Source: Arthrobacter sp. UNC362MFTsu5.1
GTDB lineage: Bacteria > Actinomycetota > Actinomycetes > Actinomycetales > Micrococcaceae
NCBI RefSeq assembly: GCF_000685965.1
Contig: NZ_JMLE01000023.1
Span: forward strand, 1 to 64,000
DNA: 64,000 bases
Direction of reading: 5' to 3'
A model generated the notes under the pieces. It saw only the letters and a list, made by a program, of their open reading frames with translations, was not told the origin of the DNA and ran no database searches. Of the stretch, positions 21,018 through 26,077 are shown one piece after another. The position numbers and the translations under genes were made by a program. Numbering within the stretch: the first letter of the stretch is position 1; each line of letters starts with the position of its first letter.

Positions 21018-21491
21018 TTACCCCTCGGCGTAGCCCCGCTCGAGCAGCGGCTGGACCCGGAAGGGGATCAGCTCTCCCATGGCGAGGGCGGTGTCCGTCC
21101 GGTCCACTCCTTCACAGGCCAGGATCTTGCCGTTGATCCGGAAGAGGTCCTCGGCGTCCAGCGCCACCACCCGCAGCAGGAGGTCGGCCGAACCTGTCAG
21201 TCCGTAGCCTTCCAGGATTTCCGGGATGCCGGCGAGATCCACCGCCAGCTGGCCCAGTTTCTGCTGCTGCACATGGACGGAGATGAACGCCATCAGCGGG
21301 TATCCAAGTGCGGCCGGACTGATGCGCCGTTCGAAGGACAGGAAGACGTGCTTCTTCTCCAGCTGGGCCAGCCGGGCCTGCACGGTGTTGCGCGAGAGCC
21401 CGAGCTTCTGGGCCAGAGCCACCACTGTCCGCTTCGGGTCCTTGGCGAGGGCGGAAAGGAGTCGCGTGTCGGTGCCATCCAAAGCTTGCAT
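21018..21491 (-). CDS. Lrp/AsnC-family regulator, BkdR-like
   Basis: A 157-residue regulator: helix-turn-helix about 5-50 (LDGTDTRLLSALAKDPKRTV, LAQKLGLSRNTVQARLAQLE) and a RAM/AsnC ligand domain (IPEILEGYGLTGSADLLLRV). Lrp-type BkdR proteins control the bkd operon in Pseudomonas and Streptomyces, and this gene is divergent from bkdA, so the same task is likely here. ATG at 21491 is chosen because the family begins just before LDGTDTRLL; a GTG six codons upstream (21509) is possible. No clear ribosome binding site is seen. Confidence 0.9.
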   Translation of the reverse strand: MQALDGTDTRLLSALAKDPKRTVVALAQKLGLSRNTVQARLAQLEKKHVFLSFERRISPAALGYPLMAFISVHVQQQKLGQLAVDLAGIPEILEGYGLTGSADLLLRVVALDAEDLFRINGKILACEGVDRTDTALAMGELIPFRVQPLLERGYAEG

Positions 21492-21558
21492 AATGCGCAA
21501 GATTAGCACGACGGATACCGCACGGGCAGTGCATTCTGCTCAGTATTATCTATGGTGG

Positions 21559-21587
21559 TTGTACCCAATGAGCATTGTGAGTATCGT
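21559..21587 (+). promoter_or_regulatory. Candidate bkdABC promoter
   Basis: TTGTAC (21559-21564), 17-base spacer, TATCGT (21582-21587). The CRP/GlxR-like palindrome covers the -10 box, which would suit repression. Confidence 0.4.
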
Positions 21588-21593
21588 CACAAT
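21574..21593. promoter_or_regulatory. CRP/GlxR-like palindrome before bkdABC
   Basis: ATTGTGA-GTATCG-TCACAAT, a perfect seven-base inverted repeat. The core TGTGA-N6-TCACA is an exact match to the CRP/GlxR consensus. It lies in the 196-base region between the Lrp-type regulator and bkdA and could serve either gene. Confidence 0.75.
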
Positions 21594-21687
21594 TATCCGG
21601 GGCAACGGCGCCCGGGCGGCTGGCGTGCACGGGGATCACGAGTTTCCTGAGCGCCGGTGACACGACGTATGAAGGTTGCGTGCAACT

Positions 21688-22866
21688 GTGTTTACAGACG
21701 AGTTGGGTCAGGGCGGCAACGCCGCCGGTGGCCCGGACAACAGTGCAGGACATCACAGCGGGACGGGCGAGAGCCGGGTCCAACTCATCACCCCGGGGGG
21801 TGAACGCGTCAGCCATCCGCAATACGACGCCTGGGTCCGGGATGTCACTGATGAGCAGCTGGGTTCCCTCTATGAGGACATGGTGGTCATCCGGCGGATC
21901 GATACCGAAGCCACCGCCCTCCAGCGGCAGGGGGAACTCGGCCTGTGGCCGCCGCTCCTGGGGCAGGAGGCCTCCCAGGTCGGTTCCGCGAGGGCTCTCC
22001 GCGACGATGACTTCGTGTTTTCCAGCTACCGCGAGAACGGTGTCGCTTACTGCCGCGGCGTGGACCTGGCCGACATCCTCACGGTGTGGCGGGGCAACGC
22101 GTCGTCGGGCTGGGATCCGTACACCGTCAACATGGCCACTCCGCAGATCATCATCGGAGCCCAGACCCTTCATGCCACCGGCTACGCCATGGGCATCCAA
22201 AATGACGGCGCAGACTCCGTGGCCATTACGTACTTCGGCGACGGCGCCACCAGCGAGGGTGACGTCAACGAGGCCATGGTCTTCGCCGCCAGCTTCCAGT
22301 CCCCGGTGATCTTCTTCTGCCAGAACAACCACTGGGCCATTTCCGAGCCGGTCCGCCTGCAGTCCCACATCAGGATCGCCGACCGTGCTTCCGGGTTCGG
22401 GATTCCCAGCGTCCAGGTTGATGGCAACGACGTGCTTGCGGTGATGGCGGCCACCCGCGAGGCAATCGAACGGGCACGCCACGGCGGCGGACCGACGTTC
22501 ATTGAAGCGGTCACCTACCGGATGGGTCCGCACACGACTGCCGACGACCCCACCCGGTACCGGGATGCCAACGAACTGGAAGACTGGGCGGCCAAGGACC
22601 CGATTGCCCGGGTGAAGGGCCTGCTGGAACGCAAGGGACTCCTGACCGAGCAACTCGAGGCCCAGGTGGCTGCCAAGGCCGACGCCGTTGCCCGGGAGCT
22701 GCGGGCCGGTTGCATCAACATGCCGGATCCCCAGCCGCTGGACATCTTCAAGCACGTCTACAGCACCCCCAACTCCTGGCTGGACCGCCAGGAGGACCAC
22801 TACTCCCGTTACCTGGCTTCCTTCGGCGATCCCGAGGGTGCCAACTCTGAAGAAGGTGCTCGCTGA
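21688..22866 (+). CDS. bkdA: Branched-chain 2-oxoacid dehydrogenase E1 alpha subunit
   Basis: A 392-residue thiamine-diphosphate subunit. The ThDP motif runs from GDG to NN: YFGDGATSEGDVNEA followed by FFCQNNHWAI. The phospho-loop-type region YRMGPHTTADDPTRYR follows. E1 oxidatively decarboxylates 2-oxo acids from leucine, isoleucine and valine and passes the acyl group to E2. Context (Lrp regulator, leucine pathway genes) favours branched-chain over pyruvate substrates. GTG at 21688 lies twelve bases after GAAGG; a TTG at 21676 is possible. Coupled to bkdB by TGATG. Confidence 0.9.
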   Translation: MFTDELGQGGNAAGGPDNSAGHHSGTGESRVQLITPGGERVSHPQYDAWVRDVTDEQLGSLYEDMVVIRRIDTEATALQRQGELGLWPPLLGQEASQVGSARALRDDDFVFSSYRENGVAYCRGVDLADILTVWRGNASSGWDPYTVNMATPQIIIGAQTLHATGYAMGIQNDGADSVAITYFGDGATSEGDVNEAMVFAASFQSPVIFFCQNNHWAISEPVRLQSHIRIADRASGFGIPSVQVDGNDVLAVMAATREAIERARHGGGPTFIEAVTYRMGPHTTADDPTRYRDANELEDWAAKDPIARVKGLLERKGLLTEQLEAQVAAKADAVARELRAGCINMPDPQPLDIFKHVYSTPNSWLDRQEDHYSRYLASFGDPEGANSEEGAR

Positions 22867-23876
22867 TGACCCAGATGACCTTTGCCCGGGCAATTAACTC
22901 CGGCCTCCGCAAGTCCCTCGAAAACGACCCCAAGGTCATCCTGATGGGCGAGGACATCGGCACGCTCGGCGGTGTGTTCCGCGTGACCGACGGTCTGCAG
23001 AAGGACTTCGGCAAGCACCGCGTGGTGGACACCCCGCTCGCCGAGTCCGCCATCATGGGCACCGCCGTCGGCCTTGCCTACCGCGGCTACCGGCCGGTGG
23101 TGGAAATCCAGTTTGACGGGTTCATCTATCCGGCGTTCGACCAGATCGTGTCCCAGGTGGCCAAGCTCCATTACCGTACGCAGGGCCACGTCAAGATGCC
23201 CATCACCGTGCGCGTCCCCTTTGGCGGCGGCATCGGTTCCCCGGAGCACCACTCCGAGTCGCCGGAGGCGTACTTCACCCACACGTCCGGCCTCCGCGTG
23301 GTCAGCGTCTCCAACCCGCAGGACGCCTACACCATGATCCAGCAGGCGATTGCCAGCGACGATCCCGTGCTGTTCTTCGAGCCGAAGCGCCGCTACCACG
23401 ACAAGGGCGAAGTGGATGAGTCGATCGATCCCGCCACCGCGCTGTCGATGGAGAAGGCCCGTGTGGTGACCGAGGGCAAGGACGTCACGCTCGTCGCCTA
23501 CGGCCCGCTGGTCAAGACTGCCAAGGACGCCGCCCTGGCCGCTGCCGACGAAGGCGTGTCGATTGAGGTCATCGACCTGCGGTCGCTGGCGCCCGTGGAC
23601 TTCGCCACGCTGGAGGCCTCGGTGCGGAAGACGGGACGGCTGGTGATTACGCACGAGGCCGGGCAGTCCGGCGGGCTCGGTGCCGAACTGGCCGCAAGCA
23701 TCACCGAACGCTGCTTCTACCACCTCGAAGCCGCCCCGGTCCGGATCACCGGCTTCGACGTCCCGTACCCGTATTCGAAACTTGAAATGCATCATCTTCC
23801 GGGTCTGGACAGAATCCTTGACGGTGTGGACCGTGCCCTGGGCCGTCCCAACTCCCTCAGCGGGCTGGAAGGATGA
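22866..23876 (+). CDS. bkdB: Branched-chain 2-oxoacid dehydrogenase E1 beta subunit
   Basis: A 336-residue transketolase-like beta subunit. Typical elements: LMGEDIGTLGGVFRVTDGL near the N-terminus, DTPLAESAIMGTAVGLAYRG, VPFGGGIGSPEHHSESPEAY, and a C-terminal domain from about 200 (VTLVAYGPLVKTA, EVIDLRSLAPVDFATL). It forms the alpha2beta2 E1 with the upstream gene. Start overlaps the bkdA stop by one base and its stop overlaps bkdC by four, so the three subunits are translationally coupled. Confidence 0.95.
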   Translation: MTQMTFARAINSGLRKSLENDPKVILMGEDIGTLGGVFRVTDGLQKDFGKHRVVDTPLAESAIMGTAVGLAYRGYRPVVEIQFDGFIYPAFDQIVSQVAKLHYRTQGHVKMPITVRVPFGGGIGSPEHHSESPEAYFTHTSGLRVVSVSNPQDAYTMIQQAIASDDPVLFFEPKRRYHDKGEVDESIDPATALSMEKARVVTEGKDVTLVAYGPLVKTAKDAALAAADEGVSIEVIDLRSLAPVDFATLEASVRKTGRLVITHEAGQSGGLGAELAASITERCFYHLEAAPVRITGFDVPYPYSKLEMHHLPGLDRILDGVDRALGRPNSLSGLEG

Positions 23877-25255
23877 GCGCCGCCATGATCAAGGAATTCA
23901 GGCTCCCGGACCTCGGCGAAGGGCTGACGGAATCGGAAATCCTCAGCTGGAAAGTGGCTGTGGGCGATACCGTGGCGTTGAACCAGGTCATTGCTGAAGT
24001 GGAAACGGCCAAGGCCGTCGTTGAACTGCCGTCACCGTTCGCCGGTGTGATCACCGCCCTCCACGAACAGCCGGGAACCGTGGTGGAAGTAGGTAAGCCG
24101 ATCGTTTCCTTCGAGGTTGAAGGTGACGACGGCGGGCCGTCCACCGGCGGCGGCCAGGCTCCGGCCGGAGCCGCCAAACGGGAACCCAACCTCGTGGGGT
24201 ACGGCGCCGTCGTCGAAAGTTCCGGCCGTCCGGCACGGCGCGCCCGTGCGTTCGCTGCGCCGGTCGAAACCGCGGCCCCGGCTGCCCCGGTGGTTGAACC
24301 GGTCGAAACCCGGACCCCGGCTGCGCCGGTGGTTGAGCGGGTCGAAACGCCGGCCCCTGCCGAACGCCCGCGGTCCACGCCGCCGGTTCGGAAACTCGCC
24401 AAGGACCTTGGCGTAGAGCTCACGGCAGTGACCGGCACCGGCACCGGCGGGCTGATCACACGCGACGACGTGCGGAACTTCGTTGGCGGGGGAGACCTCC
24501 CTGCGGCTGCCCGGGCCCTGGCCGGAGCGGGAGAGGGAACCGCCGCCGCGGGCGGGCGCGAAACGCGGACGCCGATCAAGGGGGTCCGCAAGCTCACGGC
24601 CGCGGCGATGGTGTCGAGTGCTTTCACGGCACCGCACGCCACGGAATTCCTGACCGTCGACGTCACGCCCACCATGGAGCTGCTGGCGCGGCTCAAGGCA
24701 AGCCGGGCCTTTGAAGGCTTCAAGCTGACACCGCTGACGCTCGTGGCCAAGGCGCTGCTGATTGCCCTCCGCCGCCAGCCGTCGCTGAATTCGCGGTGGG
24801 ACGAAGCGAACCAGGAGATCGTGCAGTTCAACTACGTGAACCTTGGCATCGCCGCGGCCACCCCCCGGGGACTGACCGTGCCGAACATCAAGGACGCCGA
24901 CCGGATGTCCCTGACTGAGCTGTCCACGGCGCTCACGGCGCTGACCGAGACCGCCCGCGCGGGCAAAACCAGCCCGGCCGAGCTCTCCGGCGGCACCGTC
25001 TCCATCACGAACATCGGAGTTTTCGGCATCGATGCCGGCACGCCGATCCTCAACCCGGGCGAAGCGGCCATCCTCGCTATGGGCGCCGTGCGGAAGATGC
25101 CCTGGGAATACAAGGATGAAGTGGCCCTCCGCCAGGTCATGACCCTGAGCCTGTCTTTCGACCACAGGCTGGTCGACGGCGAACAGGGGTCACGCTTCCT
25201 GGCGGATATCGGGGCAATCCTGGCGGACCCGGGCATGGTCCTGGCCATGGTCTAG
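23873..25255 (+). CDS. bkdC: Branched-chain 2-oxoacid dehydrogenase E2 (dihydrolipoamide acyltransferase)
   Basis: A 460-residue E2. One lipoyl domain (about 5-80) with lipoyl lysine K47 in VETAKAVVELP. A linker of about 70 residues rich in A, P, V and E. A peripheral-subunit-binding domain (about 165-200: PPVRKLAKDLGVELTAVTGT). A catalytic domain (about 225-460) with SFDHRLVDGEQG holding the catalytic histidine and aspartate. No E3 gene is in the window. The linker contains a tandem 13-residue repeat (see the 24260-24353 feature). ATG at 23873 overlaps the bkdB stop; an ATG four codons later is possible. Confidence 0.95.
   Translation: MSAAMIKEFRLPDLGEGLTESEILSWKVAVGDTVALNQVIAEVETAKAVVELPSPFAGVITALHEQPGTVVEVGKPIVSFEVEGDDGGPSTGGGQAPAGAAKREPNLVGYGAVVESSGRPARRARAFAAPVETAAPAAPVVEPVETRTPAAPVVERVETPAPAERPRSTPPVRKLAKDLGVELTAVTGTGTGGLITRDDVRNFVGGGDLPAAARALAGAGEGTAAAGGRETRTPIKGVRKLTAAAMVSSAFTAPHATEFLTVDVTPTMELLARLKASRAFEGFKLTPLTLVAKALLIALRRQPSLNSRWDEANQEIVQFNYVNLGIAAATPRGLTVPNIKDADRMSLTELSTALTALTETARAGKTSPAELSGGTVSITNIGVFGIDAGTPILNPGEAAILAMGAVRKMPWEYKDEVALRQVMTLSLSFDHRLVDGEQGSRFLADIGAILADPGMVLAMV
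24260..24353. repeat. 39-base tandem repeat in the E2 linker, with REP-like core
   Basis: Three imperfect copies with an exact 39-base period (matching T at 24264, 24303 and 24342), encoding VETAAPAAPVVEP, VETRTPAAPVVER and VETPAPAERP. Copies contain CGGTGGTTGA and GGTCGAAAC, which resemble the dispersed palindromic sequence (GGTTGAGCnnGTCGAAACC type) that I recall as common in Arthrobacter-like genomes; that link is from memory. Confidence 0.75.
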
Positions 25256-25344: not shown

Positions 25345-26022
25345 TCAGCTGAGCGGCTGAGGCGTCGCCGCCACCAGCAGGGCGGCGAGGGCCATGCTTT
25401 CCAGCAGGGGGCGGGCCGACTTGACCGCGACCCGCCGGCCATGGCTGCGGACCGAATGCGGTGTCGAGTTGATAAGGCCGAAGGCGGCGTGCGCGCGCAT
25501 CCGGAGTTCGGCGGTATCGGTGCCCGTGTGCAGTGCCTGCAGCACCTCAACCCACAGCTCCACGTAGTTGCGCTGCAGGGTGCGGACCTCGGCCTGGTCG
25601 TCGTCGGAGAGGTTGCTGAAGTCGCGGTCCTGGACCCGGATGACGTCGGGATTGCTCAGGGCGAAGTCCACATGGAACTGCACCAGGCGGGCCAGTGCCG
25701 CGGCGGGATCACCGGCGTCTGCAACCACCCGGCGGCCGCCGTCCAGCAGTTCCTGGCTCACGCTGAGCAACAGTGCCCCGAGGACCGCCTGCTTGCCCGC
25801 GAAATGGCGGTAGACGGCAGGACCGCTGACCCCTGCCGCGGCACCCAGGTCCTCCAGCGAAACGCGGTTGAAGCCGTTGACGGCAAAAAGGGTGGCAGCG
25901 GAGGACAGCAGCGCCTGCCGCCGGCTTTCCTTCGCCTGGCTCCTTTGGGTCATTTGGCTGTTCTGGGTTGTTTGGACCCGCTCGCCCGCCGGGCTGCCGG
26001 GACCGCGCTCGATGATCGGCAC
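25345..26022 (-). CDS. TetR-family regulator of the acyl-CoA carboxylase operon (predicted)
   Basis: A 225-residue regulator. Helix-turn-helix about 35-80: [45 protein letters not shown], the canonical TetR layout. The C-terminal ligand domain is helical. GTG at 26022 is chosen because AAGGAGG lies four bases upstream; the first 30 residues are then a disordered tail. Divergent from accD1, with paired GTTA-N8-TAAC repeats between them. It corresponds in position to Rv2506 of M. tuberculosis. Confidence 0.88.
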
Positions 26023-26077
26023 ATTTCCTCCTTGGAACTGCAAATCCTAGCAATGCGGGCGCGTGTTGGACATCACA

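Follow-up and report, generated by a model that had tools for sequence, protein, structure and literature searches.

A CRP/GlxR-type palindrome conserved over the -10 box of a likely bkd promoter in Micrococcaceae

In the DNA of Arthrobacter sp. UNC362MFTsu5.1 analysed here (64,000 nucleotides, hereafter the window), a CRP/GlxR-type palindrome lies directly on the -10 box of a likely branched-chain 2-oxoacid dehydrogenase (bkd) operon, opposite to a divergent gene of the Lrp/AsnC family. We describe this architecture, its distribution among relatives and the presence in the same genome of a CRP orthologue and of a cyclase-domain protein. The reading that we favour, and hold to be fairly probable, is that the palindrome is an operator from which cAMP-CRP represses bkd, that the Lrp-type regulator acts from upstream sites, and that the operator was added in the Micrococcaceae.

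The palindrome and its promoter

The promoter region contains the following features.

21559-21564, plus strand: -35 box TTGTAC of the bkd promoter (TTG stands here in all 187 distinct family loci)
21574-21593, unstranded: candidate CRP/GlxR operator ATTGTGA-N6-TCACAAT (core 21576-21591; ATTGTGAGTATCGTCACAAT), called from sequence and family conservation
21582-21587, plus strand: -10 box TATCGT within the palindrome (TAnnnT stands here in all 187 distinct family loci)

The window reads ATTGTGA-GTATCG-TCACAAT at 21574-21593, i.e., the exact consensus core that a sequence-only reading of this DNA had reported. This is the sole match of the window to ATTGTGAN6TCACAAT with fewer than three mismatches; when up to three are tolerated there are five matches, for 0.54 expected from shuffles. 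Exact TGTGAN6TCACA occurs seven times in the genome (5.1 Mb, 68 contigs) and the reversed control pattern never, whereas the form with an embedded -10 box, GTGANTANNNTCAC, is found in six places (bkd and pckG among them) versus two for its control. The available text of two papers gives the GlxR site either as TGTGA-N6-TCACA (PMC7999487), which the window site matches, or, in Corynebacterium glutamicum, as the longer TGTGANNTANNTCACA (PMC4254451). The window departs from the latter in that the central TA of its spacer GTATCG is one base leftward, as expected if this TA belongs to the -10 box.

To quantify conservation, we used genomes grouped as the same family, which we take to be the Micrococcaceae, since the closest relatives with a name belong to Arthrobacter and Pseudarthrobacter. 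The 204 family loci with lrp were reduced to 187 that are distinct in their first 120 bases (17 duplicate intergenic regions were dropped). Three loci (L212, L213, L221) with distant relatives of lrp and without a detected E1-alpha were discarded, L210 and L259 are the same place and were counted once, and ten E1-alpha relatives at 42-50% identity (L240-L249) were set apart as probable paralogues. The core is exact in the 80 named loci, at 86-87 nt from the lrp start codon. Over the 187 distinct loci the best palindrome has no mismatch in 161, one in 22 and two in four, so that 183 have at most one and none has more than two, which rules out a chance match. The first base of the core is loose at bkd (T in 165, C in 17, A in 5). 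Among the probable paralogues, the palindrome is exact in none of the ten, has one mismatch in two and more than three in three. The extended symmetry described in the sequence-only reading is perfect in the window and partially kept elsewhere: in an alignment of 81 rows, the outer pair retains its left T in all 81 and its partner A in 66, and the next pair outward retains its left A in 71 and its right T in 58.

The overlap with a -10 box, which had been proposed as plausible, is a constant of the family. The promoter reads TTGTAC-N17-TATCGT in the window, and in all 187 distinct loci a TTG lies 17 bp upstream of the palindrome core, with a spacer of 17 bp between the -35 and the -10 boxes. 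The 187 loci have 12 types of palindrome spacer, every one of the form [GC]TANNN; this conservation is explained by the -10 box sitting in the spacer. A generic scan for sigma-70 consensus reported no promoter here (8 of 12 consensus matches were counted, for a scan threshold of 9), so the promoter call rests on conservation and not on consensus strength. From this geometry the bkd start site is predicted at about 21594.

The divergent regulator gene and the probable binder

On the other side of the promoter we found the following features.

21018-21491, minus strand: Lrp/AsnC-family regulator gene (lrp), ATG at 21491, PF13404 and PF01037
21486-21500, unstranded: putative Lrp-type site TTGCATAATGCGCAA spanning the start codon of lrp, in conserved columns
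21500-21508, minus strand: putative extended -10-like element TGCTAATCT of lrp, in conserved columns
21528-21542, unstranded: putative Lrp-type site AGTGCATTCTGCTCA (GnGCAnnnTGCnCA), in 158 of 187 family loci
21569-21583, unstranded: putative Lrp-type half-site TGAGCATTGTGAGTA that shares bases with the left palindrome arm (with an invariant or almost invariant TG and a moderately conserved AGCA)

The regulator has the AsnC-type helix-turn-helix and the ligand-binding domain of its family, and E1-alpha is divergent from its gene in all 80 named loci and was found beside it in 122 of 123 further family loci, which bears out the earlier mention of a divergent Lrp regulator. The three GCAnnnTGC-like sites are predicted to bind Lrp. 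Their centres are spaced by 42 and 41 bp, roughly four helical turns, which would suit a multimeric Lrp. The first site is partly coding, so its conservation has a second cause; its place on the lrp start would suit the autoregulation that we propose. The central one, at about -59 from the predicted bkd start, would be suitable for activation. In loci of other families, GC[AG]nnnTGCnCA is present in 15 of 18, and in 11 of these at the same distance from lrp. The TGCTAnnnT of lrp (21491-21508) is conserved in the rows of the genus, and the lrp mRNA is predicted to be nearly leaderless.

Could the Lrp-type protein, or another dimeric regulator, be what binds the palindrome instead of CRP? Lrp-type proteins often bind several sites close to their own gene, and one Lrp-type half-site overlaps the left arm. 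Yet the arms are unlike the GCAnnnTGC sites, and similar arms are present upstream of pckG. The distribution of the palindrome is also at odds with this idea, which we regard as quite unlikely: it is missing in 18 of 18 outgroup loci that have lrp, and it is kept where bkd has no adjoining lrp, although an Lrp acting from elsewhere could be at work in the latter.

These lrp-less loci come from nine of 18 searched genomes, picked for having given no strong lrp match there earlier (L237 has lrp and was left out). Among the nine bkd-type loci whose fetched stretch contains no lrp, the palindrome is exact in six, with one mismatch in two and with three in one; TAnnnT is inside the palindrome in nine of nine, and TTG is at the right distance in eight. 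In one of them (L233), the palindrome has decayed and the promoter is intact. Conversely, among 18 lrp loci from other families of the order (L267, a Micrococcaceae locus returned by the order search, was removed from this count), none has the palindrome with at most one mismatch; the best has two, in a single locus, and the others have three to four. Still, 12 of the 18 retain TTG-N20-TAnnnT with an unchanged distance to the start of lrp (69-70 nt). Since these outgroups have the promoter and the Lrp sites without the palindrome, the former look older and the palindrome seems to be an addition of the family.

The sites upstream of pckG in 30 genomes point to CRP, with an exact core in two, one mismatch in 17 and two in five, but the six with three or more mismatches count against this reading. 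Their first core base is loose, as at bkd. The 19 best pckG sites have TAnnnT in the forward reading in no case and on the other strand in six. In most of the inspected pckG upstream stretches (those of L272-L301 and of L224, which is the pckG promoter of this Arthrobacter), the CRP-type site is directly adjoined by a palindrome like TAGACCGGTCTA, and in L224 a GntR/FCD-like ORF fragment lies upstream of it.

The genome encodes the corresponding regulator.

L228, 454-1131, minus strand: CRP/GlxR orthologue, with a GASRETVNKALA helix identical to that of the solved chain 3mzh

The recognition helix GASRETVNKALA thus matches in the orthologue and in 3mzh, a chain from M. tuberculosis. A GlxR orthologue was found in 196 of 197 family genomes, and this near-universal presence of crp makes it uninformative to discriminate between readings. 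There is also one hit to the Guanylate_cyc domain, in the cyclase-domain protein. Taken together, the persistence of the palindrome in lrp-less loci, its absence from outgroups, the pckG sites, the orthologue with its GASRETVNKALA helix and the Guanylate_cyc hit make CRP/GlxR the most likely binder, in agreement with the sequence-only reading.

If CRP is the binder, its main role here might be activation of lrp, with or without repression of bkd; the palindrome is centred about 90-92 bp upstream of the start predicted for this gene, close to the classical class I CRP position of -92.5. In 184 of the 187 distinct loci, 86-88 nt separate the palindrome from the start codon of lrp, and GlxR is described as an activator in most cases in the available part of a study on C. 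glutamicum (PMC4254451). Against this, the spacing is 104 in two loci, the nine lrp-less loci keep the palindrome at bkd with the -10 box inside, and 12 of the 18 outgroup loci lacking the palindrome share the distance between promoter and lrp. The fixed spacing therefore does not need CRP, and we discarded it as evidence for an action on lrp, which we consider unlikely to be the main role of the site.

Sign of the proposed control, operon identity and a candidate leader RNA

We infer the sign of bkd control, as we do the binder, the start site and the signals, from the sequence. With a start near 21594, the operator is centred at about -10.5, which is a repressor position and predicts repression by cAMP-CRP, a sign on which the earlier reading was silent. 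The cAMP-bound orthologue would occupy the palindrome placed directly over the -10 box. At high cAMP the dimer would cover this box and block initiation by RNA polymerase at bkd, and the promoter would open as cAMP falls. The divergent Lrp-type regulator would sense amino acids and act at the upstream sites, including the one near -59, and at its own start codon, where its most likely effects would be activation of bkd and restraint of lrp itself. In the Micrococcaceae lineage, the operator would have been superimposed on an older promoter already linked to Lrp, and it would have been retained where lrp is not beside bkd.

What is known of GlxR speaks on both sides of this model. In the part of the literature available to us, GlxR is a repressor or an activator depending on the position of the site, its binding depends on cAMP, and it represses glyoxylate genes on glucose (PMC3972247), while cAMP in C. 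glutamicum is higher on glucose than on acetate (PMC4254451). If this pattern of cAMP holds in Arthrobacter, sugar would raise cAMP and CRP would shut the bkd promoter. The predominance of activation by GlxR in C. glutamicum (see above) and its binding to targets in vivo even without CyaB, as given in the accessible text of PMC7026483, count against the model. The former would also fit a CRP that activates bkd via a second, more downstream promoter at class II or class I spacing, the overlap with the -10 box being secondary. We consider this very improbable: about 30 bp downstream of the centre of the palindrome, the 81 aligned rows show no conserved element resembling a -10 box, and the invariant -35/-10 pair is the upstream one. 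Repression from the -10 box stays our preferred reading. As to the dual control by amino acids and cAMP suggested earlier, the layout fits, with separate conserved Lrp-type sites and a palindrome that persists at bkd without an adjoining lrp and is lacking in the outgroup families with lrp; the signals themselves are deduced.

The operon consists of three genes.

21688-22866, plus strand: 2-oxoacid dehydrogenase E1-alpha, GTG start (PF00676, TIGR03181), preceded by GAAGG at 21671-21675
22866-23876, plus strand: E1-beta (PF02779, PF02780)
23873-25255, plus strand: E2 acyltransferase (PF00198, PF00364, PF02817)

The start of E1-alpha was picked by eye from relatives. A heterodimeric E1 with an E2 (21688-25255) is the composition of a bkd operon, and the label given in the sequence-only reading is likely right, though the evidence points both ways. 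E1-alpha exceeds the cut-off of the NCBIfam pyruvate dehydrogenase family TIGR03181 (462.6 versus 411.35), and its best solved relative is a named pyruvate dehydrogenase E1-alpha (243 bits, versus 164-184 bits for the 2-oxoisovalerate entries). In favour of bkd are the neighbours and fragments found elsewhere in the genome. Downstream of the operon are a TetR gene, a carboxylase pair, an acyl-CoA dehydrogenase and CoA-transferase subunits, a set (partly read from ORFs) that resembles leucine degradation. AceE-type E1 pieces are found at the ends of contigs C1, C12 and C16, none of them above the cut-off because each is partial, and indicate a separate pyruvate dehydrogenase. They include two different C-terminal parts, which suggests two AceE copies split at assembly breaks. 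The TetR gene, of the SACE_7040 family (NF050111, above the cut-off), separates the bkd operon from the carboxylase genes (25345-26043, minus strand) and may be a further regulator of the cluster.

Between the predicted start and E1-alpha, two hairpins could form in the leader.

21597-21616, plus strand: candidate hairpin H1 with hexaloop AACGGC, from its loop motif and pairing tests, with weak points
21632-21646, plus strand: candidate hairpin H2 with pentaloop CACGA, from its loop motif and pairing tests

A RANGVN motif is at a fixed place just past the predicted start in 184 of 204 loci (72 distinct segments), and a CAHRA motif is farther downstream in 140 of 204 (81 distinct segments). Generic stems are common in such a G+C-rich leader (106 of 123 loci, for 76 expected from shuffles), so only tests anchored on the motifs or based on covariation carry weight. 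When pairing was anchored on the loops alone, four of the six pairs of H1 and three of the six of H2 formed more often than in any of 500 shuffles; when the loop pattern was relaxed and the stem had to have four or more pairs, H1 is found in 89 of 124 loci versus 9% of shuffles. In 30 chosen aligned leaders, 92.0% of the cells pair and 12 cells change on both sides, for 89.7% and 4.6, respectively, in shuffles (neither value reached in 500 shuffles). In the same alignment the number of additional pair types is unremarkable (108 of 500 shuffles), and the cells changed on both sides number 13 after sliding by one column. The covariation term of RNAalifold is small (-0.91). The folded leader of the window is no stabler than shuffles (z of 0.30), and Rfam gave no leader match above the gathering score. 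A model of the leader gave 16 matches in the genome at E-values up to 10, that at bkd being 1.1e-23; the next (3.6e-4) falls within an acyltransferase-like coding frame and was taken as chance rather than as a second copy. Across 30 other chosen loci, the model gave 13 weak matches in 11 loci (best 24.0 bits). A dual-hexaloop reading of ANTAR type was set aside, since the loop of the second hairpin has five bases. We tentatively raise the possibility, to be taken as a lead and not as a finding, that the bkd mRNA starts with an undescribed cis-acting leader, with a RANGVN hexaloop and then a CAHRA pentaloop hairpin before the ribosome site; cAMP-CRP, Lrp and RNA would then meet within about 200 bases.

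Implications and comparison with known systems

If the proposed control is correct, the conversion of leucine, isoleucine and valine into acyl-CoA precursors would be under a cAMP-CRP off switch across much of the Micrococcaceae. This switch would have been added to an older Lrp-linked promoter and would outlast the absence of lrp from the locus. The promoter would provide a conserved model of a CRP operator that contains a -10 box, and it would become directly testable in which direction cAMP acts in actinobacteria other than Corynebacterium. Within titles and the openings of abstracts, where few subscription papers are covered, we recognised no report of CRP/GlxR control of bkd in Micrococcaceae, and none of the papers listed had bkdA and GlxR together.

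In Pseudomonas, bkdR encodes an Lrp-type activator divergent from the bkd operon. The locus described here is alike in layout, which is the basis of the comparison rather than sequence, with a gene of the Lrp family transcribed away from a likely operon for a branched-chain oxoacid dehydrogenase; it differs in having a CRP-type palindrome on the -10 box in Arthrobacter. The BkdR of Streptomyces (SCO3832 and its S. albus homologue) is likewise an actinobacterial regulator of the branched-chain dehydrogenase complex, and the portion of its description that is available mentions no CRP site (PMC8176718). The closest parallel for the operator is the GlxR regulon of C. glutamicum, which, as far as the available texts describe it, has the same core palindrome and an orthologous cAMP-binding regulator of CRP type that represses or activates according to position. 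The differences are in the target, which is here a 2-oxoacid dehydrogenase operon, and in the operator itself, which embeds the -10 box and has its central TA shifted by one base relative to the C. glutamicum consensus.
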